From a virus, in the IMG/VR virus record IMGVR_UViG_3300025789_000024, positions 1 to 64,000 of that record: a stretch of DNA of 64,000 bases, one strand, 5' to 3'. Shown in pieces: positions 9,399 to 33,745 of this stretch. Within the stretch, counting starts at the first letter, position 1; each line of letters begins with the position of its first letter. The position numbers and the translations under genes are program-made. The notes under the pieces were generated by a model. That model searched no databases. It saw only the letters and a list, made by a program, of their open reading frames with translations, and was not told where the DNA came from.

Positions 9399-9420
9399 TT
9401 TTTATCCTAATTTATTAAAA

Positions 9421-11022
9421 TCAATCGGGTACATATGTCCCCAACAAGTTTAGACTAGTACCACTATTAAGTCCTGATGCTAACAATTGCACATTTCCAC
9501 CATTAATAGCAGAACTTAATACCACTAAATCTACCCCTGTAGTAGACAAACTACCATATACTGTTATAAGACTATTTATGCTATCATGAATCAAAAGTGC
9601 TTCAATCGACTGATAACCGGTGTTGTCTCCCACCTTAATTGTGTATTTTGCAGACCTATATTCAGCTAGAGGAAATTGGTCTACAATTGTATTTGTATTG
9701 ACATTTATACTGGTTCTTTGTGAGTATAAATTTGAAACTGCAATGTTTGTTGCAATAATTGTTTGTGTAGTACTAACATTTCCGTTAGAAACTAAGTTAC
9801 CCTGTATAGTAGTATTACTTGAACTTGATCCTAAAGTAACGTTAGAACTTAATCCAATATTAATATTAGCAACACCTGACACTAGTATACCTGCGCTATT
9901 ACTACCACTGTCTACAGAAATCGTGCTGTTTCCAATAGTCACGCATCCACTATTTGCTATCAAATAGTTTGAAGTTACTTGAGTGTTAGTTACTGAAGTA
10001 GTTCCAACTGTTACATTTCCATCAGATACTGTGGTACTACCTACACTTACATTGCTACTAGATACTACAGTATTTCCTACAGTTACATTGCTACTAGATA
10101 CTACAGTATTTCCAACAGATATATTACTACTTGAAACTACAGTATTTCCAATTTTTACATTACTACTTGAAACTACAGTATTTCCAATTGTTACATTGCT
10201 ACTTGAAACAACCGTGTTACCAACTGTAACATTACTACTAGATACCACTGTGTTACCAACAGATATATTGCTACTTGAAACTACTGTATTACCAATTGTA
10301 ACATTGCTACTAGATACTATGGTGTTACCAACAGTAACATTGCTATTTGATATTGAAGTAGTACCTACTGTAATATTACTACTTCCCAATGAGGTGTTAC
10401 CTACACTAACAGTGTTACTTGTAATTGTTGAATTACCAACAGTAACATTGCCGTCACCCACAGTAGTGTTACCAATTGTTACATTACTTGCGCCAACAAC
10501 AGTATTACCAACTGTTACATTACTGTTAGAAATAGTAGTACTACCTACACTTACTGAATTGCTTGAGATAGTTGATGTGCCTACTGTGACATTGCCATTG
10601 GATACAGTAGTAGTTCCGATAGTCACATTGTTATTGCCAACTACAGTATTTCCAACTGTGACATTGCTATTAGATATTGTAGTAGTGCCAACTGTAATAT
10701 TACTGTTACCTACTACTGTATTACCTACTGTAACATTGCTGTTAGAAATTGTTGTATTGCCAACTTTTACATTACTATTTGAGATAGTAGTATTACCAAC
10801 TGTAACATTACTATTTGAAACCGTGGTTGTCCCCACAGTAATAGTATTTGAAGTGATGGTTGAGTTACCGGCAGTTACATTACCAGTTTGAGTAACTACA
10901 TTGCTTACGTTAGAAAGTGTTTGCGCAACTTTAGTCCATGATCTAAGTACGGAGTTATACTTATACGTGTAGGTACCATCGTTGTATGTTTGTCCGTTTG
11001 TTGGGTTTACTGGGAATGCCAT
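9421..11022 (-). CDS. Fibre-like protein with about 25 dodecapeptide repeats (533 aa)
   Basis: The N-terminus (PVNPTNGQTYNDGTYTYKYN...SWTKV, 1-33) is a small domain common at the front of phage structural proteins and differs from that of its cluster neighbours. Residues about 48-350 are 25 repeats of a 12-residue unit of the form VGNTVVSSSNVT. This perfect register predicts a beta-helix or beta-roll rod. Residues about 440-533 form a C-terminal domain (EYRSAKYTI, GYQSIEALLIHD, ITVYGSL) homologous to the C-terminus of the 1,190-residue neighbour. A late-box-like GGTAAATA ends 4 bases before the ATG; AGGG at -13 to -16 overlaps the box, so ribosome binding is ambiguous. Likely fibre shaft with a shared distal domain. 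Confidence 0.8.
   Translation of the reverse strand: MAFPVNPTNGQTYNDGTYTYKYNSVLRSWTKVAQTLSNVSNVVTQTGNVTAGNSTITSNTITVGTTTVSNSNVTVGNTTISNSNVKVGNTTISNSNVTVGNTVVGNSNITVGTTTISNSNVTVGNTVVGNNNVTIGTTTVSNGNVTVGTSTISSNSVSVGSTTISNSNVTVGNTVVGASNVTIGNTTVGDGNVTVGNSTITSNTVSVGNTSLGSSNITVGTTSISNSNVTVGNTIVSSSNVTIGNTVVSSSNISVGNTVVSSSNVTVGNTVVSSSNVTIGNTVVSSSNVKIGNTVVSSSNISVGNTVVSSSNVTVGNTVVSSSNVSVGSTTVSDGNVTVGTTSVTNTQVTSNYLIANSGCVTIGNSTISVDSGSNSAGILVSGVANINIGLSSNVTLGSSSSNTTIQGNLVSNGNVSTTQTIIATNIAVSNLYSQRTSINVNTNTIVDQFPLAEYRSAKYTIKVGDNTGYQSIEALLIHDSINSLITVYGSLSTTGVDLVVLSSAINGGNVQLLASGLNSGTSLNLLGTYVPD
9973..10881 (-). repeat. 36-bp in-frame tandem repeats (about 25 units)
   Basis: Each 36-base unit encodes VGNT(T/V)(V/I)S(N/S)SNVT or a close variant. 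The units between about 10080 and 10370 are the most alike and others have diverged. There are no spacers: the units abut and stay in frame, so this is a coding repeat and not a CRISPR array. Confidence 0.9.
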
Positions 11023-11026
11023 GTCT

Positions 11027-11034
11027 TATTTACC
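11027..11034 (-). promoter_or_regulatory. Late-box-like GGTAAATA abutting the start codon
   Basis: GGTAAATA is followed by AGAC and the ATG at 11022. The first two bases differ from TATAAATA. If functional, transcription would begin at about the start codon, as at several other genes in this window. Confidence 0.35.
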
Positions 11035-11036
11035 CT

Positions 11037-12506
11037 TTAAAAGCTAGGTGGTAAGAAATCGTAGAAATAACTACTTGATCCGTCAGTTACCCACATGTAT
11101 AATCTTTGAAAATTATTAGGATTGTCTATATAGAAGAAAATGTCGCCGTAATTTAATGTTGCAAAATCAGGGGGAGTGGGACCATAATAGAACGTTGATG
11201 CCCAAACTGTGTTCGTACCGTTACTGGTTAGTACCTGGCCCTGTGTGCCTGTACTGCCTGTACTATCACTAATAAGTGAATTTGCTGATAAGTTTATGTT
11301 TCCTGTAACATTGGCGTTACCATTGACAATGAAATCATTGTTTGCTGTTAGATAGTTCGCTGTTACGTTACCGTTTGCATTTAAATTAACTGCTACATTT
11401 ACATAGTTGGCAGTTACTAAATTACCTAAATTTGCTGTGCCGTTTGCAGGTGCGGTTAAATTACCTGTGGTATCAAAATTCCATTGTTGACTGCCGTTAG
11501 TGTTGATATAGACATTACCACTAACATCAGGTAAACTTACGTTACTTGAGCCATGCTGAATTTCTGTTATGTTTGACGGGCTTGATGACCAAGTTAAATT
11601 TCCATAACCGTCTGTTGTTAGAATTTGACCATTACTACCACCACTGATATAAACATTGCTGATTGGGCCCAATGATACTTGATTAGCACTACCGAAGTTT
11701 ACATTACCTCTAGCCACTAAACCAGTACTAGAAATTGTTACAATATTAGCAGTTCCACTAGCACTAAAATTAATATTACCATTACCGGTAATAGCCATAT
11801 TAGTATTGCCATTTTGTACAGTAGTTACCTCTGCATTACCTGCTACTACTAGACTTGCTCCGGTGCCGCTTGTTAAAACAAGATTACTACCGCTATCGGT
11901 TTCAATAGTACTATTACCAATGTAGATAGTATTTCCAGATAGGTATAAATTACCCCAACGGTGAACATTTGAACCTAAATCAGAAATATTATTGGAAAAA
12001 GGAACTACATTTCCTGTAATTCTTATATTTGCAGGAAAATTTACATCAGCAGTTTCAGTATTGACTACAAAACCGTTTATACCTGTTGGTACGCCGTCGT
12101 TTTCGTATAAAATTTCCCCGTAAGTAGCATTTATAACTCCGCCACCACTTACGTCAATTAAGATACCGTCAACTTCAAGTTGACCGTCAATTTCAATTGG
12201 TTGTGCAAAAAGACCTTGATAATCAAAGGGTACAACAGTTGCTTGACCGTTGGGAATAAAGTACGGCATTGGTGCCGCACTATTTGAACTTACTGAAGAA
12301 AAACTTAAATTGCCATTTCCGTCAGTTTGTATATATTGACCTGCAGTTCCGCCGCCAATAAAAATATTACTGACATTACCTAAATTAGCATAGGTGTCTA
12401 CGGTTAAAACATTAGCAGTAACATTCGCATTAACGTCAACAACGTTAATAATCGAGTTAACACCAACGCTAAACCCGTAGCCGGAATTTAAGGGCTTTAG
12501 TGCCAT
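11037..12506 (-). CDS. Fibre-like virion protein (489 aa)
   Basis: ATG at 12506 with AGGACG upstream; it begins 2 bases after the stop of the 1,400-residue gene, so the two are probably co-transcribed. The N-terminus (MALKPLNSGYGFSVG) matches that of the next gene upstream. It is followed by TYANLGNVSNIFIGGG, then the APMPYFIP..YQGLFAQPIEIDG module shared with the 212-residue protein, then NITEIQHGSSNVSLP and GNVYINTN segments. The C-terminus (GPTPPDFATLNYGDIFFYID, then RLYMWVTDGSSSYFYDFLPP) is a different distal module from the other fibre proteins here and resembles short end domains of phage fibres. Probable fibre subunit. Confidence 0.75.
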   Translation of the reverse strand: MALKPLNSGYGFSVGVNSIINVVDVNANVTANVLTVDTYANLGNVSNIFIGGGTAGQYIQTDGNGNLSFSSVSSNSAAPMPYFIPNGQATVVPFDYQGLFAQPIEIDGQLEVDGILIDVSGGGVINATYGEILYENDGVPTGINGFVVNTETADVNFPANIRITGNVVPFSNNISDLGSNVHRWGNLYLSGNTIYIGNSTIETDSGSNLVLTSGTGASLVVAGNAEVTTVQNGNTNMAITGNGNINFSASGTANIVTISSTGLVARGNVNFGSANQVSLGPISNVYISGGSNGQILTTDGYGNLTWSSSPSNITEIQHGSSNVSLPDVSGNVYINTNGSQQWNFDTTGNLTAPANGTANLGNLVTANYVNVAVNLNANGNVTANYLTANNDFIVNGNANVTGNINLSANSLISDSTGSTGTQGQVLTSNGTNTVWASTFYYGPTPPDFATLNYGDIFFYIDNPNNFQRLYMWVTDGSSSYFYDFLPPSF

Positions 12507-12508
12507 TA

Positions 12509-15500
12509 TTAAATCGTCCTAAATTGTGTGGTCCATACTGTTGAGTTTGTACTTGCAGGAGATACCTGTAATGCAATGTTGCTACCGACAATATTAACCG
12601 CTAATCCACCTGTAGTTGCTCCGATAAATGTTGTTCCATAAATTACGAAATCTGCATTTGCTGATCCGTCTGACACAGCCATAACTGTAGCCGCACTATA
12701 TTTGTTTAATGTGCCGTTTTCATCAACACCTTTAACAAAGAATTCTACACCTGTAATGCCTGCTACTGGTATTTGTGCAACTGTTTGATTAGCCGCAATA
12801 CTTGCTGTTGTTACTGTTGCCCAATATATTGCTGTGTTACCTAATACAATCGCATTAGCTACATTTGCATCATATGTGTTAACTACGTTACTAACTGTAA
12901 TGTTACCATCATTTGTGATTGCAACATTGCTTGAATTATTGCCAACAAAAATGTTACCTGTTAAGTTTGCATTACCGTTACTAATATTTACATTACTTGA
13001 ACTGTTGCCTACAAATAATGTGCTAGTAATGTTTGCATTTCCATTGATATTTGCATCGTAATTAGCAGTAATATAATTTGCAGTTAAATTACCTGTGATG
13101 TTTGCAGGGCCACCGTTGTTGATGTCTATGCTATTACCATAGAATGCATTAGCAGTAATATTGCCTGTTAACGCATTGACATTACCTGAAGCACTTACAT
13201 CTACAACATTTGCTGTGTTAGCAGTTATAACATTTACACCGCTGATGTTGCCGCCACTACCTGTACCAACTTGAACATTACCTGTGATATTTGCATTGCC
13301 ACCGACAATTAAATCAGTTCCAACATTTGCATAACCTGTTGAAATAAAGTTATTTACGTTAGCATATGTGTTAACTGTTAAACTGTTAGTAACTGTTGCT
13401 GTGTTAGAATTAACATTTCCAGCTAATAAATTACCAGTTAGTGTTAAACTTGTACCAGTTGCGTCACCAATATTTGGTGTTGTCAACTGTGCATTTGCCG
13501 CAACTGTGATGTTACCACCAACAATTGCAGTAGTTGTTCCGTCTACGTTAGCAGTAATTAATGTTCCAGTAACATTGATGCCGTTTGCACCTGTATAAGC
13601 ACCACCTTGACTGAATTGTACAAATGCAATGTTTGTAATACCGATATCAATTTCACCAGTTGTTGTTACGATCCAGCTTGAACCACCGTATACATCACCT
13701 TCAGTTACAAAGAAGTATGAACCTGCTGCCAAACCATTTGCACTTTGTGGGATATAACTATTACCATCAGCACTTCTTGTTAATACCCAAGGAGTTGAAC
13801 CATCACCAACTGTTGTTACATCGTAAACACCATTGTATGCTTGATTTGTTTGACCAGTTACAAGAACACGTAAGCCTGTAGTAGTTGTTACACTATCAAC
13901 AATTAATGCGGCAAGTGTACCTGCATTTGTCAATGTTGCACCTGTACCTGCTTGACCTAATGCAGGCTGTGACAATCCTGATCCAGCAGTTAATGTTTCT
14001 ACTGGGGCGGGACCATAATATTCATCCTTCAATGTGATTTGATTAGATGCGGGTACTGAAGCTACATAGTAGATATCAGGATCGCCACTAATACCATTGA
14101 ATGAATTAGTAAATGAAATTGTATTACCTACGCTTAATCCGTGCGCGCCACTAAACTGAACAACACTATTACCAATAATGTCAGTAACAGTTAGACTTGT
14201 ACCACCATTGTTATAACTTGCATTCAAATTACCTGATGACAACACATTTGCCGCTGGGTGAACATATAAACCTTGACTGATGTTATCAACATATTGCTTT
14301 GTAGCCGCATCTTGTGGATTAACTGGATCAGCAAGACTTGTAATGTATGTGCTGTGAACATCAACGTTACCTGCACCACCTGGTACTAAGTTAATATTAT
14401 ATGTGCCATTAGATACCAAATCACTTGCAATTTGTAAATATGTACCAGTACTTGTGATAGTGTTGCCAACAAATGTGCTTGTTGTTGTGATATTAGCGTT
14501 AGCATATAATGTACCAATTACATTAGCACCTGTTGCTGTTACTGTTAATACGTTAGCATTACCACCAACTGACAAGTTGATATTGCCGTTAACTACTGGA
14601 ATAGCAACATTACTTGTACCGTTTGCCAATTTACCTAATAAATTACCAACTGTTAAGTTACCTGTAATATTTGCATTTGTTTGTACATACAAATTACCCG
14701 CAATGTTAGCATCAGCATTTGCATAGAAGTAATTTGATAATATGTTACCTTGAACGTTTACATTACCGTTAGCATTTAAGTCATTACCTAAATTTGCATA
14801 GTTAGCAAACAAATAATCAACACCGCTGATGTTACCACCTGTGCCGCCTCCAGTAGTAATATTACCACCAACTTCAAGATTGCCTTGAATATTTGCATCA
14901 TTTGCAAAGTTTGCGTAGTTTGCAGTTACTAAGTTACCTAAATTAGCTGTGCCGATTGCAGGGAATGTTGTATTACCTGTAGTATCAAAGATCCATTGAT
15001 AGTCTGTACCTGCATTAGCATTAATGATTACATTACCATCAGCGACAGGAATACTTACATTACTGTTACCATTTGCAACTTGTGAACCTGATGCCCAACT
15101 TAAGTTACCTGTACCATCTGTAGTAAGAACTTGATTTAATGCGCCACCGTAAATGTGAACATTAGCAACATTACCTAATACCACATTTGGATTATTTGTG
15201 TTGAAGTCAATAGTTTGACCTGAACCAACACTAAATGTACCGTCTGATCCAAATTGATATTCCCAATATTGTGCATTAGTGTATAATAATATATCACCAT
15301 TGTCATTTAATATAACTTGACTGTAGTTTGCACCGCTTGTTTGAATACTGATATTGTTTGCCGCAGGTGTTGTGATTGTTGCATAACCACTGTTAGCGTT
15401 AGGTAAAATTAAATTACCATTATCTTCGAATATCCAGTTATATGCACCTTCTTGACTGTACAACTTAACATTACTATTAGTGCCATTGTCATTTAATTGG

Positions 15501-16711
15501 ATACCTGAATAGACACCAGAATTGGTATAGATGTTAATTGCTGTGTTTGGTTGGCCAGTTATGCTAGAACCATTTGGCAATGTTAATTGACCGTTTTGAT
15601 CAAATGTCCAGTTTTGTGATTCAGCATTTGTAGCAATTGTTACATTACCACCAGGGCCGTCAGTTAAGTAAATTTCACTATAACTTGAAACATTAGAAGT
15701 ATAAAAATCAAGATTTGTAAGTGAAGTAATTACGCCATAAACTGGTAGTGTAAGATATCCATTTGTATCAAATACCCATTGTTGATCACTGCCACTATTA
15801 GCATTAATGTAAACGTTACCGTCTTGAGATGGGATAGTTACATTACTATTACCATTTTTAATTTCGTTGATGTTTGGCGCTTCAGTCCATGATAAGTTAC
15901 CGGTACCGTCAGTTTGAAGAACATAGCCGTCACTGCCACCTAAAATGTGAACATTACCGATATTACCTAATTGTACATTTGCATTATTAGTACTAAAGTC
16001 AACAAGACCACCGTTACTTGTAAAACTATTAGCAAAGATAACGTTTGCGCCACTGATGTTACCTGCACTGCCTGTTGTAGAGAAATTATTTGCTGTTACA
16101 TTGCCAGTTACATTAGCATTGCCAGTGATTGTTACATCATTGGCAAAATTTGCATAATTAGCAGTTACTAAATTACCAAGATTTGCTGTACCGACTGCAG
16201 GGAATGTAGTGTTACCAGAATTATCAAGATTCCATTCATACTCACTACCTTCATAATCAGTATAGAAGTAGATGTTGTTTGTATCAATGTCAATATAACT
16301 ATTGCCAGAAGCGTCCGTTAGATTTAGACTACCGCTATTTGGTATGATGTAGCTACTGCCAGGTACTGTTAAATTACCTGTTATGTCAAATACCCATTGA
16401 GAATCGGTTGCTGCATTAGCATTGATATAAATATTACCACTAGCAACAGGAATGCTTACATTACTATTACCATTTTGAATTTCAGTAACACCGGGGCTTG
16501 ATGACCAGTTTAAGTTACCTAATCCGTCAGTACTAAGTACTGCACCTGAGTTACCTCCACCAATGTAGATATTACCCACATCGCCTAGATTTGCGTAATT
16601 ACTTACAACTAGATTGGCTGTGGTAACATCGGTATTTGGGTAGATTACTGTTGTAATCGTACTGTTACCTACGCTAAAACCGCCTACTGAATTTAATGGT
16701 TTAAGAGACAT
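12509..16711 (-). CDS. Largest complete fibre-like virion protein (1,400 aa)
   Basis: ATG at 16711 with AAGGAA 8 bases upstream and a GATAAATA late box at 16734-16741. The N-terminal MSLKPLNSVGGFSVGNS module is shared with the 489- and, more weakly, the 897-residue proteins. Residues about 30-560 contain several copies of a block of the form ANLGxVGNVxIxGGxxGxVLxTDGxGNLxW, then EIQNGNSNVSIP, then a QWxFDTTGNxTxPxxG line. DPVNPQDAATKQYVDNISQGL (about residue 790) and a following domain (RVLVTGQTNQAYNGVYDV) match the tail-fibre middle module of the 1,190-residue protein. The last about 95 residues (IPVAGITGVEFFVKGVDENG, FVIYGTTFIG) are a divergent version of the shared distal domain. Probable long fibre protein. 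Confidence 0.8.
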   Translation of the reverse strand: MSLKPLNSVGGFSVGNSTITTVIYPNTDVTTANLVVSNYANLGDVGNIYIGGGNSGAVLSTDGLGNLNWSSSPGVTEIQNGNSNVSIPVASGNIYINANAATDSQWVFDITGNLTVPGSSYIIPNSGSLNLTDASGNSYIDIDTNNIYFYTDYEGSEYEWNLDNSGNTTFPAVGTANLGNLVTANYANFANDVTITGNANVTGNVTANNFSTTGSAGNISGANVIFANSFTSNGGLVDFSTNNANVQLGNIGNVHILGGSDGYVLQTDGTGNLSWTEAPNINEIKNGNSNVTIPSQDGNVYINANSGSDQQWVFDTNGYLTLPVYGVITSLTNLDFYTSNVSSYSEIYLTDGPGGNVTIATNAESQNWTFDQNGQLTLPNGSSITGQPNTAINIYTNSGVYSGIQLNDNGTNSNVKLYSQEGAYNWIFEDNGNLILPNANSGYATITTPAANNISIQTSGANYSQVILNDNGDILLYTNAQYWEYQFGSDGTFSVGSGQTIDFNTNNPNVVLGNVANVHIYGGALNQVLTTDGTGNLSWASGSQVANGNSNVSIPVADGNVIINANAGTDYQWIFDTTGNTTFPAIGTANLGNLVTANYANFANDANIQGNLEVGGNITTGGGTGGNISGVDYLFANYANLGNDLNANGNVNVQGNILSNYFYANADANIAGNLYVQTNANITGNLTVGNLLGKLANGTSNVAIPVVNGNINLSVGGNANVLTVTATGANVIGTLYANANITTTSTFVGNTITSTGTYLQIASDLVSNGTYNINLVPGGAGNVDVHSTYITSLADPVNPQDAATKQYVDNISQGLYVHPAANVLSSGNLNASYNNGGTSLTVTDIIGNSVVQFSGAHGLSVGNTISFTNSFNGISGDPDIYYVASVPASNQITLKDEYYGPAPVETLTAGSGLSQPALGQAGTGATLTNAGTLAALIVDSVTTTTGLRVLVTGQTNQAYNGVYDVTTVGDGSTPWVLTRSADGNSYIPQSANGLAAGSYFFVTEGDVYGGSSWIVTTTGEIDIGITNIAFVQFSQGGAYTGANGINVTGTLITANVDGTTTAIVGGNITVAANAQLTTPNIGDATGTSLTLTGNLLAGNVNSNTATVTNSLTVNTYANVNNFISTGYANVGTDLIVGGNANITGNVQVGTGSGGNISGVNVITANTANVVDVSASGNVNALTGNITANAFYGNSIDINNGGPANITGNLTANYITANYDANINGNANITSTLFVGNSSSNVNISNGNANLTGNIFVGNNSSNVAITNDGNITVSNVVNTYDANVANAIVLGNTAIYWATVTTASIAANQTVAQIPVAGITGVEFFVKGVDENGTLNKYSAATVMAVSDGSANADFVIYGTTFIGATTGGLAVNIVGSNIALQVSPASTNSTVWTTQFRTI

Positions 16712-16733
16712 TTGCTGATTCCTTATTATCTTA

Positions 16734-16741
16734 TATTTATC
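16734..16741 (-). promoter_or_regulatory. T4-type late promoter box GATAAATA
   Basis: GATAAATA on the minus strand, 22 bases before the ATG at 16711. The leader contains the AAGGAA ribosome binding site. This is the usual box-leader-SD-ATG arrangement. Confidence 0.6.
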
Positions 16742-16777
16742 ATTTTCTCAAAAATGGGCATACACTCATTCTTATTT

Positions 16778-19471
16778 TTATGTTGCATACTGCGTGATTT
16801 GCATCTTATACGTCACGGTATTCATTGTTTCCGGTGTTACGTATAACACGATGTACCCTGCATTGTACGATATAGAATAGTCCCCAACTGGGCCACCTAC
16901 ATATAATTGACTGTATTCATTATAGTTAACATTGCCACTATAATATACCGCTGTAGACTTTGTGATTTGTCTATAACCAGCTGTAGCATCAGTAGCAACA
17001 ATAGTAAATTCTAATCCTGAAATATTTGCGGCACTGATTGCTAACAATTGTTGCAATCCTGCACCTGATGTTGTGGCAGCAAACGTGTTTGCAGTCCAAA
17101 ACTGATTTAATCCTGTACCCAGTGTTAGTGAGTTTGCAACCATACTACCTACTAAGTTTACAACACCTGTTACATGATTGTATGTAAAATTAGTATTTCC
17201 ACTGAATGTGCCGTTTTGATTGAACTGAATTTGATTGTTTGCGCCACCTGGGCTACCTGTACTTGGAACCCATTGTAAATCACCTGATCCATCAGTAGAT
17301 AAGATATATCCTGCGCTACCACCACCAATACTTACATTTCCTGCATCACCCAATGCAAGTACACTACCATCCCAAGTTACAGTAGGTATACCACCAAAGT
17401 CACCTTCTAAATTAAACTGTAACTGAGTGTTGTTACCACCGGGTAATCCATTACCACCTGCAGGGGCCGCCCAAACTAAGTTCCCTGCTCCGTTTGTTTT
17501 TAATACATAACCATTGCTACCACCTGCAATGTTGATATTACCAACATTACCTAAATTAGTTTTACCAGTAACTGTTAAATTACCTGTTCTAGTGTTACCT
17601 GTAACATTAGCATTGTTAACAATCGTTATTGATCCTGAAACAGTTGCATTGGGTGCTGTTAATACACCAGTTGAACTATTAAATGTAAATCCAGTAGTAC
17701 CTGCAAAGTTGCCATTGTCATTGTATTGAACTTCTGTGTTAATACCGCCGGGGTTTCCACCACCGCCACCTTCAGCCCAAGATAATGCACCTGCACCATC
17801 TGTAGTCAATACATAACCACTAGTTCCGCCACCAATACTGATTTGAGATACATCACCCAGTGTTAATAAACTACCATCCCATGTAGTAGTTGGTATGCCT
17901 GCAAAACTTCCACTGTTATTAAACTGTAATTGTTGATTTGAACCGCCGGGCGTTCCTGATGCTTGTAACCAACTTAGATTACCTGTACCATCAGTAGATA
18001 ACACATAACCTGTTGTACCACCAGTAATTGTTAAGTTACTAATGCTTCCTAAATTAGCAGGTCCTTGTATGTTTAGATTAGTTAGTGTACCTAAACTAGT
18101 AATGTTAGGTTGAATATTAGTTGTTAATCTACCGCCTAAATTGACTGCATTAACATTGTCTGATGCATTTAATGTAATTACATTAGCAGTTGTTGCCTTT
18201 AATGTTCCTGTAACATTTGCGCTTGATGCAGTTACATTATATGTTGCAACTACATTTGGTACAGTCATTACACCTGAGGTGTTTGTAAATGTAAATCCGG
18301 CTGCGCCACCAAATGTACCTGCATTGTTGAATTGAATTTCTGTGTTACTACCACCGGGTGTTCCATTACCACCGCCGCCACCTGTTTGTGCAGTCCAACT
18401 TAGATTACCTGTACCGTCAGTTTGTAACACATAACCATTAACACCACCGCTGATTACAACATCAGATATACCTGCATTTAATGAGTTAACAGGACCATAA
18501 ACGTTACTACCTGCAACACTATTAGCAATAGCCGCAAACGCTACTTGTCCTGTGACGTTTCCACCGGCTACTCCATTTGCGATAGTTGCATACTCTACTG
18601 CACCGTGAACATTTGCACCAGCAACATAATTAGCAATAGCCGCATAATTAACTTGTCCGAATACATTACCACCTGCAACACTGTTTGCCACGTTGGCATA
18701 ATTAACTGCGCCGAACACATTGCTACCTGACACGCTGTTTGCAACACTTGCATATTGTACAGCACCTGTTACATTGGCACCGGCTACTGAGTTTGCTGTA
18801 GCCGCATAATTGACTTGTCCAAATACATTACTACCTGCTACTCCATTTGCAATAGTAGCATAAGCAACTGCTCCAGTAACATTACTACCTGCTACACTAT
18901 TAGCAATGGTTGCATACTCTACTGCACCTGTAATGTCACTGCCTGGAATACTTGCATTAAGTGTACCTGTAACTGATAGATTAGGTACTGTTACAACACC
19001 TGTTGCACTATTGAAAGTAAAACTAGGCAAGCCACCAAACTGACCAGCATTATTAAATTGAATGTATGTGTTGCTACCACCGGGGTTAGTGTTACCCCCA
19101 CCATTACCTGATCCAGGTGCCCATTGTAGATTACCTGTACCATCAGTTTGTAGATAATAGCCAAAAGCTCCGCCACCTAATTTAACATTAGCAACACTAC
19201 CCAATGACAAGTTTGCGCCATCCCATGTAGTGATTGGTATTCCACCAAATGATCCATTGTTATTAAATTGTAGTTGAGTAGTGCTACCGCCGGCTGCCCC
19301 TGCAAAAGGAGTACCGTTAGCCCAATAAAATTGATTTGCATATACATTAGAAGCAGTAACATTTCCTGATGTAAAAACATTAGTAACAATATTACCATTG
19401 CCATCAGTAATAGCGATAGGTGGTATACCAACTGAGTAACCTGCTAATGAATTAAAGAGTTCTGCTGCCAT
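16778..19471 (-). CDS. Fibre-like virion protein with NNGxFGG and 18-residue repeats (897 aa)
   Basis: First gene of the fibre cluster in the direction of transcription; late box GATAAATA at 19497-19504. The N-terminus (MAAELFNSLAGYSVG) is a diverged form of the LKPLNSxxGFSVG module. The block PGGSNTxIQFNNxGxFGG, a LGDVxxVxIGGGxxGYVL line and a TDGxGxLxW line recur about five times. Residues 177-329 hold eight full 18-residue repeats such as GSNVTGAVAYATIANGVA. The C-terminal about 90 residues (LEFTIVATDATAGYRQITKS, YSQLYVGGPVGDYSI) are a distal beta-rich domain resembling that of the 1,400-residue protein. Probable fibre component; not tied to any one T4 protein. Confidence 0.8.
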   Translation of the reverse strand: MAAELFNSLAGYSVGIPPIAITDGNGNIVTNVFTSGNVTASNVYANQFYWANGTPFAGAAGGSTTQLQFNNNGSFGGIPITTWDGANLSLGSVANVKLGGGAFGYYLQTDGTGNLQWAPGSGNGGGNTNPGGSNTYIQFNNAGQFGGLPSFTFNSATGVVTVPNLSVTGTLNASIPGSDITGAVEYATIANSVAGSNVTGAVAYATIANGVAGSNVFGQVNYAATANSVAGANVTGAVQYASVANSVSGSNVFGAVNYANVANSVAGGNVFGQVNYAAIANYVAGANVHGAVEYATIANGVAGGNVTGQVAFAAIANSVAGSNVYGPVNSLNAGISDVVISGGVNGYVLQTDGTGNLSWTAQTGGGGGNGTPGGSNTEIQFNNAGTFGGAAGFTFTNTSGVMTVPNVVATYNVTASSANVTGTLKATTANVITLNASDNVNAVNLGGRLTTNIQPNITSLGTLTNLNIQGPANLGSISNLTITGGTTGYVLSTDGTGNLSWLQASGTPGGSNQQLQFNNSGSFAGIPTTTWDGSLLTLGDVSQISIGGGTSGYVLTTDGAGALSWAEGGGGGNPGGINTEVQYNDNGNFAGTTGFTFNSSTGVLTAPNATVSGSITIVNNANVTGNTRTGNLTVTGKTNLGNVGNINIAGGSNGYVLKTNGAGNLVWAAPAGGNGLPGGNNTQLQFNLEGDFGGIPTVTWDGSVLALGDAGNVSIGGGSAGYILSTDGSGDLQWVPSTGSPGGANNQIQFNQNGTFSGNTNFTYNHVTGVVNLVGSMVANSLTLGTGLNQFWTANTFAATTSGAGLQQLLAISAANISGLEFTIVATDATAGYRQITKSTAVYYSGNVNYNEYSQLYVGGPVGDYSISYNAGYIVLYVTPETMNTVTYKMQITQYAT
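18485..18943 (-). repeat. 54-bp in-frame tandem repeats (8 full units plus a partial)
   Basis: Each unit encodes 18 residues of the pattern G(S/A/G)NVxG(A/Q)VxYAxxANxVA. Conserved V, A and Y positions with variable surface positions suggest one turn or strand pair of a fibrous beta structure per unit. Confidence 0.85.
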
Positions 19472-19567: not shown

Positions 19568-19939
19568 ATGATTACTACTCAACCACCAAGACCTATATGC
19601 ATTAATTGCAAATTTTCATTAGCAAAGTCTAATGGAAAAAGTAAACATGGATTTCAAAAGTGGCATCGATATTGTGTTGAGTGTGCTAAATCGATATACA
19701 ATCCTAGATTTAAACACTTACAATATAAAAAGTTACATTGTGAGCAATGTAGCTTTGAAGCAGAAGACAAATGTCAATTAGATTTGATATTTGTAGATGG
19801 GAATAAAAAGAATAAAACTAAAAAGAATATGTTAACACTATGTGCAAACTGTAGTAGATTGTACAAAAAGCGCCAACGTACAGGTAAAAAATCAATTTTA
19901 AATAATGTTACTGTTGATGCTGATATTAGGATTGCTTGA
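19568..19939 (+). CDS. Zinc-finger protein with degenerate HNH fold (123 aa)
   Basis: Four CxxC knuckles are visible: C11/C14, C36/C39, C58/C61 and C92/C95. The second half has the layout of an HNH nuclease (CxxC, then LDLxxxDGN, then an N-x-LTLCxNC tail). However, the two histidines normally in the LDxHHxDGN segment are I74-F75 here, and the usual final His after the last CxxC is Ser, so the nuclease centre looks lost while zinc binding is kept. It is the only plus-strand gene in the first 30 kb and sits divergently from the fibre cluster. Its last 14 bases overlap the end of the desaturase gene on the other strand. Role unknown; DNA or RNA binding is possible. Confidence 0.65.
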   Translation: MITTQPPRPICINCKFSLAKSNGKSKHGFQKWHRYCVECAKSIYNPRFKHLQYKKLHCEQCSFEAEDKCQLDLIFVDGNKKNKTKKNMLTLCANCSRLYKKRQRTGKKSILNNVTVDADIRIA

Positions 19940-20630
19940 TTTTTAGTAATCTTAAAAATTCAAATATTTTTATATACATAAACCCAATATCAAATTCAAA
20001 CTTTTCACGACTAAGTTTACAACTTGCAGGATTTAAGTGATGATTATTGTGTAACTCTTCACCACCTACAACAATGCCCCAAGGAGTTATGTTATGACTA
20101 TGATCTTTAGTCTCACCGTTACGATATCCCCACCAATGGCCTATCCCATTGATAACTCCGGCTGCCCAAAAGGGTATCCAAATCATTTGCACACCCCATA
20201 TTAATAATCCTATTGTTCCAAACAATGTTAGATTGATCCAAAGCATTATTAGTATGCCTAAAAAATTATATCTAGTATAAATTTTTTCTATAAAATCATC
20301 AGGTGTGCCTACACCATACTGATTTACCATGTCTTTGTCTTTTACTGCACTACTATATAACAATGCGCCCCTAGAGAATACACGCCATATTCCATAGACA
20401 TGTGGGCTATGTGGATCACCTTCTTTGTCACTAAATCTATGATGCTTTCTATGAGTTGCTACCCACTGTTTAGTTACCATACCTGTTGTAAGCCATAACC
20501 AAAATCGCATAAAGTGACTTAATACAGGATGAAATTCTAGTGACTTGTGAGCCTGTCCTCTGTGCAAGAACAACGTCACACATACTATAGTGATGTGTGT
20601 AACTATTAAAGTGTATATGATATATGTCAT
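19926..20630 (-). CDS. Membrane fatty-acid desaturase (acyl-lipid/acyl-CoA delta-9 type)
   Basis: All three histidine boxes of the membrane di-iron desaturase family are present in order: HRGQAH at 23-28, HRKHH at 60-64 (followed by the typical SDKEGDPHSP) and HNNHH at 194-198, plus the accessory histidine in NGIGHWWGYRN (about 165). Hydrophobic stretches at about 3-22, 36-52, 122-146 and 148-164 fit membrane spans. At 234 residues it is compact but shows no missing box. The expected reaction is O2-dependent introduction of a double bond into membrane acyl chains. It follows the capsid gene's terminator and has its own box-like GTTAAATA 4 bases before the ATG, suggesting late expression. Probably an auxiliary metabolic gene of host origin; the substrate is not determinable. 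Confidence 0.9.
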   Translation of the reverse strand: MTYIIYTLIVTHITIVCVTLFLHRGQAHKSLEFHPVLSHFMRFWLWLTTGMVTKQWVATHRKHHRFSDKEGDPHSPHVYGIWRVFSRGALLYSSAVKDKDMVNQYGVGTPDDFIEKIYTRYNFLGILIMLWINLTLFGTIGLLIWGVQMIWIPFWAAGVINGIGHWWGYRNGETKDHSHNITPWGIVVGGEELHNNHHLNPASCKLSREKFEFDIGFMYIKIFEFLRLLKIKQS

Positions 20631-26664: not shown

Positions 26665-29600
26665 TTAAACCTTAGTATGTTTCAATATCTTTTCATTAGT
26701 TCTATGACTATTTTCTAAAACACTGATTACTTTATCCAATTTTGATCCCATCATATGTATCATTTCAGGAAGCGCATTACCAATACCAGGCTCTTTTGTT
26801 GCTGTAGCTACTGTTTCTGGTTTAGCAGGTTCTTTTGCTAATTGCATCAATATAGAATTAGGATCCAATGGAGCTACTAGTTCACTACCGTGCATTTCGA
26901 TTGGATAACCAGTAGTCGGGCCATCAAACATACCGCCTGATTTAGCTTTTAATAAATTTGCATTGTCGTATGCTCTTTTACCAACTTGTTTTGCATATGG
27001 GCTACCTAATAAATTATCAGCAGCTCCTGCTGTATCGCCGGATTCAATTTGTTTTGTAAAATTGGGCCATTTTTGATACCAAGCCGGTCCCATATTAAAT
27101 GTTAAGTCAGTTAGTGCTCCTTGACCGGAGGGTTTTAATTTACCAAAACCCGGTATTTTTTCTGCCGCCTGTCTATGTTTTTCATAGTCATCGTCAAACA
27201 AAGAATCTACTTCTTTATCAGAAAGTGTTCTATTCCATGCCGGTGGTAAACTTCTACCGTCACCAATTAAGTGACCTACGCCAACAGTCCATAAGCCTTT
27301 ACTGTCTTTATACGGGGTATTTCTAACACCTTCGTGTCTCTTAATCATTGATTTTACATCAGCATCACCACCTCCAGCACCACCGGGCGTTCCTGGTGCG
27401 CCTCCTGCACCTGCTGCACTGGCTCGACTACCTATTGCCATGTTTCCACCAAGAGTTGAACCTTTACCGGTCGCATCTCCACCGTCAACTGTAAATCTAG
27501 CTTTACTTACTGAGCCTGCATTAGTTGGACCTGAACCGGCTCCTGCACCTGCAGTGCCTCCGGCACTTGCATTTGTGCCACCTGAAGATTCTCCTGGATT
27601 TGTTCCTGTTCCGGTTGGGCTACTAGATGCGCCGCCTGTTCCGGTTGTTCCTGCGGGTCCTGCCGGCGGGGTGCCAGCAGTTGCTCCACCACCAGCCCCA
27701 CCTGTCTGTGCACCAGATGTCGCACTTCCACCTTGATTCGGGCTTGGCGCCGCTCCGCTGACTGTTGCTCCTGACAATAGCCCCATTGATTGTGCATACT
27801 TATGAAAAGCGTCAGCATTTTCTCCGGCTTTTTTACCAAAATCCATTTCACTGAATTTCTTAAATGCTGCTACTGGGCCGTCTCCGCCGAATAACTTAGT
27901 GACCCCTGCACCAATCATTGAACTAACTGCACTAAAGCCCCCAGGGCCACCTTTATAACTTGCCATTGCAGTTGCAAAGTCAGCAAAGGCTTTAGCATTC
28001 TTTGTTGTCTTATCCGGATCTACTGATAATTTTGCAAAATTTTCAAACTGATTGATAGGTGGTTTTGATTTAAAGAAATTAGTGACAGATTCTGAAATAG
28101 CATCTGATGCAGCCGCAGACGCCGAACCACCTTTATATTCTGACATAGCCTTACTAAATGCAACAAATGCATCTGCTTTATCTTTTACTGCTTTAGGATC
28201 AGCAATATTTAAATTAGAGAAAGTAGTAAATTGTGAGTAAGGTAATTCTGTGCTAAAGAACGTAGTAATAGAATTAGAAATTGCTGATGCTGCTCCTTCG
28301 TTGGCGCCGCCTTTGTAGTTTGACATAGCATCACTAAAAGCAACAAACGCACTTGCTTTGTCTTTTATTGATTTAGGATCACCTACGTCTAATTCTGAAA
28401 ACTGAGTAAATTTATCAAATGGTAAATCTTGAGTACCGAAAAATCCTGTAATACTATTAGTTATTGAACCAATCAATCCTTCACTTGGTCCACCGTTGTA
28501 TTTTGACATTGCATCACTAAATGCAACAAAAGCATCAGCATTATTTTTTACTTTTGCCCCATTAATATCATATGATTGAAATTGTAATAATTGATCAGCC
28601 GCTTCTGTTAGTGGATCTTTTTGACCAGTAAACAATCTAGCCAAACCTGTCATTGCATTTAATGCAGCACCTGCTCCTAATGCAATAACACCTGCACCTA
28701 ACCCTGCCATTCCCAAACCAACTTGTTTTAGATTATCTCCGTCAACATCATTAAATGATTTCAATCCTTTAGCAAAGTTAGGTAATGCTTCACCCAATAT
28801 CCAAGTTGCGCCGGCAACGCCTGCACCAATCAACGCAATTGCAGCACTAATTGCTCCGGCGCCTGCTATAACTTGAGGTGCAACTTTGCCAACTCCTGCT
28901 AATCCTTGACCAACACCTTCAATAAACCCACCAACACCTTTGCCTGCGCCGCTTTCAGCCGCTTTTTCAAGTACAGGTAATGAGCCGGCCGCTGCTTTTT
29001 CTACTCCAGTCGCTACTTTTATTGTGCTACTTGCGCCTTCGGCAACTCCTGCAACTTTTCCAATGTTATTAACTGCGCCGCCTGTACCACCGGCGATGCC
29101 TGCGGCGCCGCCTAAAGGTTTAGTAAGTTTACTTAATAATCCGCCGGCTGCACTTCCTACTGCTCCGGGAGTACGCAATGCAAATATTAATCCACCAATA
29201 GCAGCGGTAGCGGCACCAAGTGCGACTGTTAGCGCAGTCATGTGATTGCTTGCTGAAGTGATTAAGCCATCAGTTTTTATTCTTGCTTTAATTTCAATTT
29301 CTTGTAATTTAGCAGCCCTATCTGCTTTAGTGTCAGTACCTTCTTTTCCTGTTTTTTCTGTTGCTTTACCGGCTTCTTCAATACGCTTGTTGTATTCGTC
29401 CGGTGTCATACCGGCAGTATTCTGTGTAGCTTCTAGTGCTTCTTTACTAAAACCTAATGCGGCTGCGCCCTTTTCACCTGTAAACTGTAATGAATCTCCT
29501 GCATTTTTAACAGTATTATCGATGCCTTTATTGATTTGACCACCGATGTTGTTACCAATTTGACGACCGATTCTTTCAGAAGCCGCAGTATCTACTTTAC

Positions 29601-30819
29601 CTTCTTTATCGTATGTTACTTGTGTACCGATTGTTGCTTGCTTAACTTGGGCTGCATTGACACCTAATGTTGCTAGGCCTTTTGTCTTTTCATCATACGT
29701 GCCTGTTCTTGCCAAATGAGCAACTTGCATAGCAGTTTCCTTGCCATACAAATCGGACATTTGGTTGATCATAGCCTTTCTGGCTTTTTGATCGGCCATC
29801 ATTTGAGCGGCGCCTTGTTTGTCTCCGGCCGCTTCTAGTTCTTTAATCTTTATATTTTCTTGTCTAGTCTTTACTTCTTCTTCAAATTCTAATTGTGCAG
29901 CCTGTTGGTCTTTTTGCATTTGGTCTGCACTTTTACCAGTTAACGCACTTAATTTGACTAGATTTTCAGCATATTCAATTGATGATTCTTTTAATGCTTT
30001 TCTACTTACAACTTCAGATTGCAGTACTGCTAATGATGTCTGTTGTTGTGAGACATATGCAGCCTGCATATCTGTTAATTCTTCTTGTGAAATTCCTAAA
30101 CGTTTGAATTTTTCACGTGTTTCGCTACCAACATTAGCCATTTCTAAGAATGACTTAGTTCCTTCACCTACCGTGCTTCCTAAACTTAATAATCCTTTAC
30201 CGGCAGTTTGTAATGGCTTAACTAATTTTTCTAAATCACCTGATGCATATCCTGCATTTCTTCCTAATCCAGCAAGTTCATTTGTGGTAGTGCCAACAGC
30301 ACCGCCCATCTTACCTATATTTTCTCGGAAGTTGATTTGGTCATCCATCTGTTTGTTAACAGCTTGTTGAACCATAGTAAAGGCTTTGATTAGTGCACCG
30401 GCAGCTAATCCCAATAAACCAAAGTTTTTACCAACTGTTAACGCAGCATCGCCGGCTGACCCTAATGCATTATTATATTTTGAAAAACCCTTTTGTCCAC
30501 TTAGTAATGCATCACCAAACTGCCCCAGTGCCATAACTGCACTGCCGCCTGCTCTTTTAATATTGGCTGCTTCTTCTGCTAATTGATCTGCTGCTTGCTT
30601 TTCTGCGTCTGCTAGTGCTTGTGCTCCGGCGCCAGCATTCTTTTGTGCAGTTGAATTTTGATTAACTGCATCTGCATTTTGTTTTGATGCGCCGCCTGCA
30701 CCTTGCATACCTTTTGCAAAATCCCCCATAGCGGAGTTGGTTTTGCCAAGCATATCTGACATTGCAGATAGGTGCTCGTTGATTTGCCTTAAGATTTCTG
30801 GGTCAATTGAGTCAGACAT
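26665..30819 (-). CDS. Tape-measure-like tail protein with C-terminal T4-type lysozyme domain (1,384 aa)
   Basis: The size, helical N-terminal two thirds, several hydrophobic Ala/Gly-rich segments (for example about residues 130-150, 530-550 and 650-680) and position beside gp26 fit a tape-measure protein (gp29 role). Residues about 520-720 are Gly/Ala-rich and membrane-active-looking. Four ~60-residue repeats lie near 755-1000, then a Gly/Ser/Thr-rich linker. Residues about 1155-1294 form a full T4-lysozyme (GH24) domain: MIKRHEG with E1163, YKDSKGLWTVGVGH with D1172 and T1178, and SGQGALTDLTFNMGP. The E-9-D-6-T spacing equals T4 lysozyme E11, D20, T26. About 90 residues follow the domain. 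It probably sets tail length and carries wall-degrading activity into the envelope. Confidence 0.85.
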   Translation of the reverse strand: MSDSIDPEILRQINEHLSAMSDMLGKTNSAMGDFAKGMQGAGGASKQNADAVNQNSTAQKNAGAGAQALADAEKQAADQLAEEAANIKRAGGSAVMALGQFGDALLSGQKGFSKYNNALGSAGDAALTVGKNFGLLGLAAGALIKAFTMVQQAVNKQMDDQINFRENIGKMGGAVGTTTNELAGLGRNAGYASGDLEKLVKPLQTAGKGLLSLGSTVGEGTKSFLEMANVGSETREKFKRLGISQEELTDMQAAYVSQQQTSLAVLQSEVVSRKALKESSIEYAENLVKLSALTGKSADQMQKDQQAAQLEFEEEVKTRQENIKIKELEAAGDKQGAAQMMADQKARKAMINQMSDLYGKETAMQVAHLARTGTYDEKTKGLATLGVNAAQVKQATIGTQVTYDKEGKVDTAASERIGRQIGNNIGGQINKGIDNTVKNAGDSLQFTGEKGAAALGFSKEALEATQNTAGMTPDEYNKRIEEAGKATEKTGKEGTDTKADRAAKLQEIEIKARIKTDGLITSASNHMTALTVALGAATAAIGGLIFALRTPGAVGSAAGGLLSKLTKPLGGAAGIAGGTGGAVNNIGKVAGVAEGASSTIKVATGVEKAAAGSLPVLEKAAESGAGKGVGGFIEGVGQGLAGVGKVAPQVIAGAGAISAAIALIGAGVAGATWILGEALPNFAKGLKSFNDVDGDNLKQVGLGMAGLGAGVIALGAGAALNAMTGLARLFTGQKDPLTEAADQLLQFQSYDINGAKVKNNADAFVAFSDAMSKYNGGPSEGLIGSITNSITGFFGTQDLPFDKFTQFSELDVGDPKSIKDKASAFVAFSDAMSNYKGGANEGAASAISNSITTFFSTELPYSQFTTFSNLNIADPKAVKDKADAFVAFSKAMSEYKGGSASAAASDAISESVTNFFKSKPPINQFENFAKLSVDPDKTTKNAKAFADFATAMASYKGGPGGFSAVSSMIGAGVTKLFGGDGPVAAFKKFSEMDFGKKAGENADAFHKYAQSMGLLSGATVSGAAPSPNQGGSATSGAQTGGAGGGATAGTPPAGPAGTTGTGGASSSPTGTGTNPGESSGGTNASAGGTAGAGAGSGPTNAGSVSKARFTVDGGDATGKGSTLGGNMAIGSRASAAGAGGAPGTPGGAGGGDADVKSMIKRHEGVRNTPYKDSKGLWTVGVGHLIGDGRSLPPAWNRTLSDKEVDSLFDDDYEKHRQAAEKIPGFGKLKPSGQGALTDLTFNMGPAWYQKWPNFTKQIESGDTAGAADNLLGSPYAKQVGKRAYDNANLLKAKSGGMFDGPTTGYPIEMHGSELVAPLDPNSILMQLAKEPAKPETVATATKEPGIGNALPEMIHMMGSKLDKVISVLENSHRTNEKILKHTKV
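27770..28565 (-). repeat. ~60-residue coding repeats in tape-measure protein
   Basis: Four tandem copies plus a partial fifth of a unit with ADAFVAFSDAMSxYKGG, then ISNSITxFF, then PxxxFxxFSxL, then DPKxxKDK. The first three copies are most alike and the fourth is diverged. Gain or loss of such units would alter the length of the tape-measure protein. Confidence 0.75.
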
Positions 30820-30914: not shown

Positions 30915-31739
30915 ATGAACAATAACCCACTTAAGCAGTATTTCAGAAGACCTGCCGTTTATCTTAAATTACCCAGCGGTGGTAAGGATTATACACCTGA
31001 TGTAATTGACATGCCAGTCAACGGTGAGCTTCCTATCTACCCAATGACTGCCATTGATGAAATTACTGCTAGAACCCCTGACGCATTGTTTAACGGTGTT
31101 GCAGTAGCAGATTTAATGAAAAGTTGTGTTCCAAATATCAAAGACCCGTGGAAAATCAGCAGTAATGATTTAGATGCAATTCTTATTGGTATCAAAGCAG
31201 CCGCAGGTGGTGATGGATTGGAACTTGAATCTACTTGCCCAAGTTGCACAGAATCTAGCAAATATGGAGTTAACTTAGTTGGATTATTAACTACATTAGT
31301 TGCCGGAGATTATACTAAGGAACTTGAGTTAGGTGATTTGAAATTTAAATTAAGACCTTTGATTTATAAAGAAATGAACGAGGCTGCTATGGCACAATTT
31401 GAAATACAAAAAATGTTCCAAAACGTTAGTGCTATGGAAGCAGGTGCTGATAAAGAAGCCGCAAGCAATGTTGCACTACGAAAAATTACCGAGTTGACTA
31501 TGGATTTGTTAAGCAAAGCAATCGAATACATTCAAACACCCGGCACAAGAGTTGATGATCCTGCACATATTTTAGAATTCTTACAAAATTGTGATAGAAC
31601 TACATATACACAAGTTCGTGATTACAATGCAGAATTAAAAATGGCAACACAAATGAAGCCAATTAAAATTAAATGTATCAACTGTAATCATGAGTATGAG
31701 CAAGACTTTACTCTAAACCCATCTGATTTTTTCGGTTAA
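30915..31739 (+). CDS. 26: Baseplate hub assembly protein (T4 gp26-like)
   Basis: A 274-residue protein with the family's YFRRPAVYLKLPSGG start (9-23) and the conserved NGELPIYPMTAIDEIT and RTPDALFNG blocks (36-61). Two CxxC pairs (C108/C111 and about C254/C257) suggest a zinc ribbon joining the middle and C-terminus. GAGGA precedes the ATG. It is divergent from the tape-measure gene. The last sense codons, TTT TTC before GGT TAA, lie in a canonical slippery heptamer, so a fraction of ribosomes may continue into a 76-residue extension. In other tailed phages a frameshifted protein pair beside the tape-measure gene is the tail assembly chaperone, so a similar role is plausible. Confidence 0.88.
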   Translation: MNNNPLKQYFRRPAVYLKLPSGGKDYTPDVIDMPVNGELPIYPMTAIDEITARTPDALFNGVAVADLMKSCVPNIKDPWKISSNDLDAILIGIKAAAGGDGLELESTCPSCTESSKYGVNLVGLLTTLVAGDYTKELELGDLKFKLRPLIYKEMNEAAMAQFEIQKMFQNVSAMEAGADKEAASNVALRKITELTMDLLSKAIEYIQTPGTRVDDPAHILEFLQNCDRTTYTQVRDYNAELKMATQMKPIKIKCINCNHEYEQDFTLNPSDFFG

Positions 31740-31775
31740 GGCTTCTTTACACTAGCCCCGAGGGTATTAAGAAGC
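31727..31775 (+). promoter_or_regulatory. Candidate programmed -1 frameshift signal
   Basis: T TTT TTC at 31727-31733 fits the X XXY YYZ slippery rule in the gp26 frame. Seven bases later GCTTCTT (31741-31747) pairs perfectly with AAGAAGC (31769-31775), and the loop contains a CCC/GGG mini-stem. The zero-frame stop TAA (31737-31739) falls in the spacer, giving the standard layout of heptamer, stop and downstream stem-loop. Confidence 0.75.
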
Positions 31776-31963
31776 TGATAGACCAGTATGAAGAAGACGT
31801 GGTGGGCATTAAGAAAAATGCAATCACCATGGCTTGGTATATGCGCGGTGGTGTTTCATATGAAGATATTCTGAACATGTCTATCCAAGAACGCAACGAT
31901 ATAAACGAAACGATAGAACGAAACTTAGAAACCACTAAGAAATCTGGACTCCCATTCTTTTAA
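31733..31963 (+). CDS. -1 frame extension of gp26 (76 aa), expressed by frameshifting
   Basis: After slippage on TTTTTTC the -1 frame continues for 76 codons to TAA at 31961-31963, giving a 349-residue fusion. The extension starts RLRLLYTSPEGIKKLI and contains MAWYMRGGVSYEDILNMS; its end, ETTKKSGLPFF, is of a type I associate with T4-like tail proteins. Coding-like content begins right at the slip site, yet the first in-frame ATG is at 31829, 32 codons in, with no good ribosome binding site. Translation by frameshift is therefore more economical than independent initiation. Independent initiation at 31829, giving a 44-residue peptide, remains possible. Confidence 0.72.
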   Translation, partial: RLRLLYTSPEGIKKLIDQYEEDVVGIKKNAITMAWYMRGGVSYEDILNMSIQERNDINETIERNLETTKKSGLPFF

Positions 31964-33175: not shown

Positions 33176-33745
33176 TTAAACGGTTATACTTAATATATTA
33201 GCTGACACGGTGTCGGTTGTGGGGTTTGTTTGAGTTGGAGTGCCTGAGTAGGTTTTAAGAAGGTCTTTGTTGAAATTGAAAAAGTGATTGAACTCAATGA
33301 TTATCCAATCTCCTAAGTTAGGAGATGTGTAATATAAAAATTGATCAGTTACCCATGTATACTTAGTCTGTACGGCAATAAATTTACCTTTACGATTAAA
33401 TTTCATAAAAAGAATATTTAAGTCACCGGGGTCTGCTACATCCATAAGTTGTCCCAGCCAAGAATCTAACTGTTTACATGAACCAGCTAGTACTTGATGA
33501 AACGGAAAGTCGGCATAACTCTTGCATTCGGCGTTGAATTTTGGAAAACTCTGTCCGGGTACGATATCGCCCTTGAAGCTACGAATCTGTCCTTCATGTA
33601 GAATTTCAGTACGTGATTGATTCTTGCCTCCGATGTATGCACCAGAGCCAGGAGCTCTGATGAAACTCTCGCCGTATGCTTTTGATAAGAATACAGCAAC
33701 TTCTCTTTCGAAGGAAGAACCTTTAGCTTTTTGTGGGGATGTCAT
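33176..33745 (-). CDS. PD-(D/E)XK nuclease, possible Holliday-junction resolvase (189 aa)
   Basis: The residues fit the PD-(D/E)XK core: E14 in SSFEREVAVFL, D60 in FKGDIVPG, and E73-x-K75 in FNAECKSY, followed by a helix with a QLDSWLGQ segment. Conserved Arg/Gly features (FIRAPGSGAY) resemble Hjc/RecU-like resolvases. Its neighbours are gp46 and gp47, so a role in recombination, branch cleavage or host DNA degradation is likely. The ATG is immediately preceded by TATAAT and, further up, GATAAATT, so the transcription start is unclear. The last 30 residues are Thr-rich and probably disordered. Confidence 0.7.
   Translation of the reverse strand: MTSPQKAKGSSFEREVAVFLSKAYGESFIRAPGSGAYIGGKNQSRTEILHEGQIRSFKGDIVPGQSFPKFNAECKSYADFPFHQVLAGSCKQLDSWLGQLMDVADPGDLNILFMKFNRKGKFIAVQTKYTWVTDQFLYYTSPNLGDWIIIEFNHFFNFNKDLLKTYSGTPTQTNPTTDTVSANILSITV

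Follow-up and report, generated by a model that had tools for sequence, protein, structure and literature searches.

The gp26-type gene of an uncultured T4-like virus very probably gives rise, through a −1 ribosomal frameshift close to its stop codon, to both a short and a long form of a chaperone, as judged from the sequence of the locus and of its relatives. The locus lies in a window of 64,000 nucleotides (positions 1 to 64,000 of IMG/VR record IMGVR_UViG_3300025789_000024, which has 115,390 bases) that contains T4-like genes. Slippage itself, its rate and the chaperone role of the products are what we infer from the patterns described below.

Results

A slippery heptamer at the end of gp26

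The original prediction had placed T TTT TTC in the gp26 frame with a stop codon 3 bases on, followed by a 7-base spacer and a perfect 7-bp stem (GCTTCTT/AAGAAGC), and each of these elements was verified in the sequence (Table 1). The final codons of gp26 read GAT TTT TTC GGT TAA, with one sense codon separating the heptamer from the stop, and the heptamer has the X XXY YYZ form of a −1 site, in the 0 frame and within the overlap of the two reading frames. The + strand of the window contains 10 copies of TTTTTTC, which is by itself not rare, so the weight of the case rests on conservation.

Table 1. Coordinates of the gp26 locus and its divergent neighbour in the window
Feature	Position	Strand	Basis
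Divergent neighbour of gp26: probable tape-measure protein of 1384 aa, lysozyme domain near the C-terminus	26665-30819	-	PF00959, E 9e-14; hydrophobic stretches
gp26-type gene, putative short chaperone form (TAC-N)	30915-31739	+	PF12322 T4_baseplate match; 274 aa ORF
Slippery heptamer T TTT TTC	31727-31733	+	read in sequence; gp26 frame
−1 extension (putative C-terminal part of TAC-NC): FF + 76 residues, ends KSGLPFF, stop TAA	31727-31963	+	translation; relatives
Spacer GGTTAAG, 7 nt, from heptamer to stem	31734-31740	+	sequence
gp26 0-frame stop TAA, inside spacer	31737-31739	+	starts 3 nt past heptamer
Candidate stimulatory stem-loop	31740-31776	+	−16.8 kcal/mol fold of 31734-31800; paired changes in 76 relatives

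Conservation of the site and its codons

A scan of viral contigs (IMG/VR) with gp26 returned 35 close relatives, one of them cut by the contig end, and the T6-C site together with a closely similar extension was kept in all informative loci (34/34). Far-T4 relatives with sequence past the site all carried ATTTTTTC, except for 3 loci with CTTTTTTC, and when 76 distinct far-T4 sites were aligned without gaps, TTTTTTCG was invariant in every row. Most far-T4 extensions end in TKKSxLPFF. The check proposed with the original prediction, namely whether the TTTTTTC-stop-stem layout and the extension ending in KSGLPFF are conserved, was therefore passed across the far-T4 relatives.

We then widened the survey to 248 distinct gp26-type loci, drawn from several lineages by gp26 similarity and not by the site; scans with gp26 of PA5oct and Atu_ph07 added few new loci. 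Of the 248, 246 had a T6 heptamer in X XXY YYZ phase and, after it, an open −1 extension. These loci are related by descent and so are not independent events, and two-gene phages are under-represented in the survey. Extensions at the same site were present in P-SSM2, S-PM2, HTVC008M, Cr30, phiW-14, phiAS5 and KVP40, and the few short extensions in the survey were cut by contig ends. The heptamer was TTTTTTC in 211 loci, TTTTTTT in 34 and TTTTTTA in 1 (n = 246), and the gp26 stop began 3 nt past it in 208 and directly after it in 27. Across the sequences compared, conservation of the slippery layout is overwhelming.

The exceptions without a slippery site were T4 gp26 and Pseudomonas phage Cygsa01. 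The gp26 gene of Cygsa01 ends in ATTTTC ACC TAATG, which suggests stop-start coupling or another mechanism; among the single-gene phages examined, it alone lacked the T6 site. Two outcomes had been named in advance as speaking against frameshifting: loss of the site with both coding parts kept was confined to this one distant phage, and relatives carrying the extension as its own gene, with its own start and ribosome binding site, were not encountered.

Codon choice at the site was distinct from that in the rest of the same genes. Phe-Phe was encoded by TTT-TTC (211) or TTT-TTT (34) at the site, versus TTT-TTC in 18 of 178 cases elsewhere, where TTC-TTT was commonest (89). The first Phe codon was TTT in 246/246 loci, against a TTC share of 26% among the other Phe codons of these genes, and the preceding codon ended in T in 246/246, versus about 40-80% elsewhere. 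The residue at that preceding codon varies (S, D, N, A, T and others). Amino acid conservation alone is not a sufficient explanation for the fixed codons.

The −1 frame extension evolves as protein

In the −1 frame, a TGA at 31724-31726 is followed by no further stop until TAA at 31961-31963. An open −1 frame of 74 codons would arise by chance with p of about 0.003 (Markov-1 simulation). The predicted 76-codon opening was confirmed as 76 new residues ending in KSGLPFF. The accompanying claim that no start codon falls in the first 32 extension codons held for ATG but not for GTG, as GTG GTG occurs at 31799-31804, after GAAGAAG.

In full-length far-T4 extensions (n = 77), variability tracks the codon positions of the −1 frame, the first 33 codons included. 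Single-difference changes over −1-frame codons 8-32 of the far-T4 set comprised 3874 synonymous, 3339 replacing and 0 stop changes, while the other two frames over the same codons gave 1499-2023 stops. Homologous −1 extensions were detected in Atu_ph07 (E 1e-10), Sinorhizobium phage Phosso, 121Q and others, and these homologues, together with the codon-position and synonymous pattern, mark the −1 frame as selected at the protein level. ATG, GTG and TTG were all absent from the first 20 codons in 57 of the 77 extensions, with start positions scattered. Since this stretch is under protein-level selection without an early start, its translation must come from upstream.

A candidate stem-loop lies downstream of the heptamer

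Downstream of the 7-nt spacer, within the 5-9 nt range for a stimulatory RNA structure, GCTTCTT (31741-31747) pairs with AAGAAGC (31769-31775); a G-T pair at 31740/31776 closes the stem, and its inner pairing is weaker. The downstream region of the window alone folds moderately better than shuffles (z −1.9). In the 76-sequence alignment, cells changed on both sides of the stem numbered 69, versus 34.6 ± 7.2 in shuffled alignments (0/500), and the stem columns were 78% paired, falling to ≤52% once slid by one to three columns. RNAalifold returned no consensus structure on the same alignment, which we counted mildly against the stem, and several relatives break or shift it. Downstream folding z had a median of −1.98 in the far-T4 group (0.02 for control windows) and was weaker in the cyanophage-type group (median −1.2 versus −0.53 for controls). 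Long individual hairpins were found in S-PM2 (z −5.9) and P-SSM2 (z −5.0).

Predicted products and their place next to a probable tape-measure gene

The gp26 product belongs to the PF12322 T4_baseplate family (Pfam; E 8.3e-14, 52.2 bits, curated cut-off 24.5) and matches PHROG 150, baseplate hub (PHROGs; E 1.1e-13). An AlphaFold2 model, whose alignment was built from the fetched viral-contig loci only, had a confident fold (mean pLDDT 87), and a fold search with it returned many viral T4-like baseplate-hub relatives and no solved structural relative. A short helix (269-273) that includes the FF forms the end of the model, and F272-F273 belong to the handful of residues that never vary across the gp26 family. 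Since the extension is modelled as all-helical (pLDDT 82), it could continue this terminal helix.

In phage lambda (G/GT) and P2 (E/E′), a gene close to the tape-measure gene yields short and long forms through a −1 frameshift. The window locus has the same predicted pair of forms, beside a probable tape-measure gene, and the slippery sequences differ. Judged by sequence, it encodes a short form and a C-terminally extended form that share one domain, and the best reading of the long product is a tail assembly chaperone in its long form. No similarity of the window proteins to any characterised chaperone was detectable; comparison of gp26 and the extension with solved chaperones, by sequence and by fold, gave nothing significant, and a Pfam search did not recover the Phage_TAC family.

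The divergent neighbour of gp26 has several strongly hydrophobic stretches and a C-terminal lysozyme/endolysin domain, the only one recognised by Pfam and PHROGs, and its homologue adjoins gp26 in 60 fetched loci, some of which overlap. We infer that it is a tape-measure protein. The tape-measure gene that had been proposed beside gp26 is thus adjacent, but on the opposite strand and with an identity that is probable. In S-PM2, the gene that follows the extension matches a tape-measure family. A DUF6071 gene (PF19547; 31974-32720, +) starts 10 nt past the end of the extension in the window, so the gene after the putative chaperone is not the tape measure here. The proposal that the gp26 locus is a chaperone pair was strengthened by the tape-measure-like neighbour in S-PM2 and by the gp51 fusion described next.

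Seven Straboviridae carry a two-gene version

T4 has two PF12322 genes (gp26 and gp51), and a single one is found in P-SSM2, S-PM2, HTVC008M, KVP40, phiW-14, Cr30, phiAS5 and others. In two-gene Straboviridae, gp26 had no slippery site in any phage (7/7; T4, 44RR, ZZ1, G5211, EC-F2, avDM2 and vB_SdyM_006), and in the six whose gp51 reads through, that is all but ZZ1, gp51 consists of a gp26-like domain followed by an in-frame homologue of the extension. T4 gp51 thereby resembles the predicted long form of the window, with PF12322 present in both T4 proteins; T4 differs in having two genes and no slippery site, where the window has one gene with a −1 site. The gp51 of Acinetobacter phage ZZ1 (2001-2755 of its fetched locus) is not one frame as deposited, giving two tblastn pieces with internal stops, which may reflect a genuine break or an error in the sequence.

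The gp51 C-terminus matched the cyanophage extension at E of about 1e-11 to 2e-13 and the far-T4 extension at E 5e-5 (0/200 column shuffles as good). A direct profile match between far-T4 and cyanophage extensions was weak (E 0.003; 1/200 shuffles as good), and the link between the two, at the level of sequence profiles, is one that runs through gp51. Tree building placed the gp26 and gp51 of Straboviridae in one group (100/99) that excluded KVP40, phiAS5 and the other sequences, with long branches. This fits a duplication and fusion that replaced the frameshift on the Straboviridae branch, a direction suggested by the tree and one for which the long branches call for caution. In T4-type phages, the gp26 and gp51 gene pair seems to have taken the place of the frameshift.

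Other genes in the window

A fatty acid desaturase gene (19926-20630, −; PF00487, E 2.8e-15) adjoins the probable major capsid gene and is a possible auxiliary metabolic gene. A run of large repetitive Asn/Gly/Val/Thr-rich proteins is encoded at 5826-19471 (−), within which the product of 12509-16711 had no Pfam match. A putative phage PDDEXK endonuclease gene lies at 33176-33745 (−; PF24608, E 2.5e-24).

Discussion

We propose that a ribosome translating gp26 would be stalled before the downstream stem with UUU in the P site and UUC in the A site. A minority would slip back by one base, both tRNA-Phe re-pairing with UUU UUU. Ribosomes that do not slip would stop one codon later and release gp26 (TAC-N, 274 aa), while those that slip would bypass the stop and add the 76-residue helical extension (TAC-NC, about 349 aa). 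While the tail is assembled, the two forms together may coat the tape-measure protein in the manner of lambda G/GT, with the extension making the special contact.

The extension could instead be a separate small gene, reached from an internal start or by stop-start reinitiation. Public records do annotate it as an ORF of its own (P-SSM2, S-PM2 and KVP40, as 'baseplate hub assembly catalyst', and 121Q); the window has its GTG GTG, an ATG lies close to the gp26 stop in some relatives, and Cygsa01 pairs the loss of the slippery site with TAATG. A separate gene leaves unexplained both the fixed TTT-TTC codons with their preceding T and the gp51 fusion, and most far-T4 extensions lack an early start, with starts scattered, yet have codons under protein-level selection. 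The missing starts and the selection on the first 33 codons led us to reject this reading as the general case, and for the window we consider it very improbable.

Slippage might instead occur in transcription and not on the ribosome, with a base added to some mRNAs at T6. In favour of this, the site invariably has a core of six T, but six T is short for polymerase slippage, and such slippage needs no conserved, covarying stem at ribosomal spacing. The constant X XXY YYZ phase likewise speaks for the ribosome, though the invariant FF also fixes the phase. We give transcriptional slippage a slightly smaller chance again. A sequencing error or recent frameshift mutation that split one gene would accord with both parts reading as one protein in T4 gp51; a layout common to 246 of 248 loci, isolates sequenced by different groups among them, refutes it, and its probability is negligible. 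Ribosomal −1 frameshifting is the reading we retain.

Frameshifting in such genes has precedent. PMC10885494 cites Vladimirov et al., 2022 for a T4-like chaperone pair of which some versions use a frameshift and others do not, and PMC12846349, on Pakpunavirus Adele, cites the same work for poly-T slippery sequences known in TAC-N genes of T4-like phages. Going by these citing papers, both the frameshift and the two-gene versions of T4-like chaperones appear to be already published (Vladimirov et al., 2022). For the chaperone gene of Adele and Vandenendeviridae, which are of a different phage family, a −1 frameshift was likewise deduced from two features, an open −1 frame and a conserved poly-T motif, GTTTTT (PMC12846349). 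In the parts of the literature consulted on gp26/gp51 frameshifting, cyanophage frameshifting and jumbo-phage chaperones, with Vladimirov et al., 2022 represented by its citing papers, we found no description of this locus. The kind is thus already known, and the window locus and its uncultured lineage are a new, very well conserved example. A broader claim, which we advance tentatively and hold to be possible at best, is that the gp26 −1 frameshift, with a covarying stem, is near-universal in T4-like phages outside two-gene Straboviridae, jumbo and uncultured far-T4 phages included, that the T4 pair arose by duplication and fusion that replaced the frameshift, and that no earlier account covers this breadth.

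Cyanophages, pelagiphage, KVP40 and phiAS5 resemble the window in having a single PF12322 gene, TTTTTTC or TTTTTTT, a stop and a −1 extension. Their extension is shorter and diverged (55-74 residues from the slip, versus 72-78 in far-T4), and it lies in a same-strand operon where the short downstream 'gp51' is annotated as a separate gene. In many GenBank records the extension appears as a gp51 or hypothetical protein of its own, or is omitted; in S-CAM1 and ACG-2014d, a −1 extension with a TTTTTTC site occupies an unannotated gap between gp26 and the next gene. The separately annotated gp51 of many T4-like genomes is most likely the frameshifted tail end of gp26. T4-like phages would then offer a natural experiment, in which one branch makes the long chaperone by frameshifting and another makes the same form from a second gene, and since there are two routes to the same long form, the need for a fixed ratio of short to long forms in contractile tails becomes testable.
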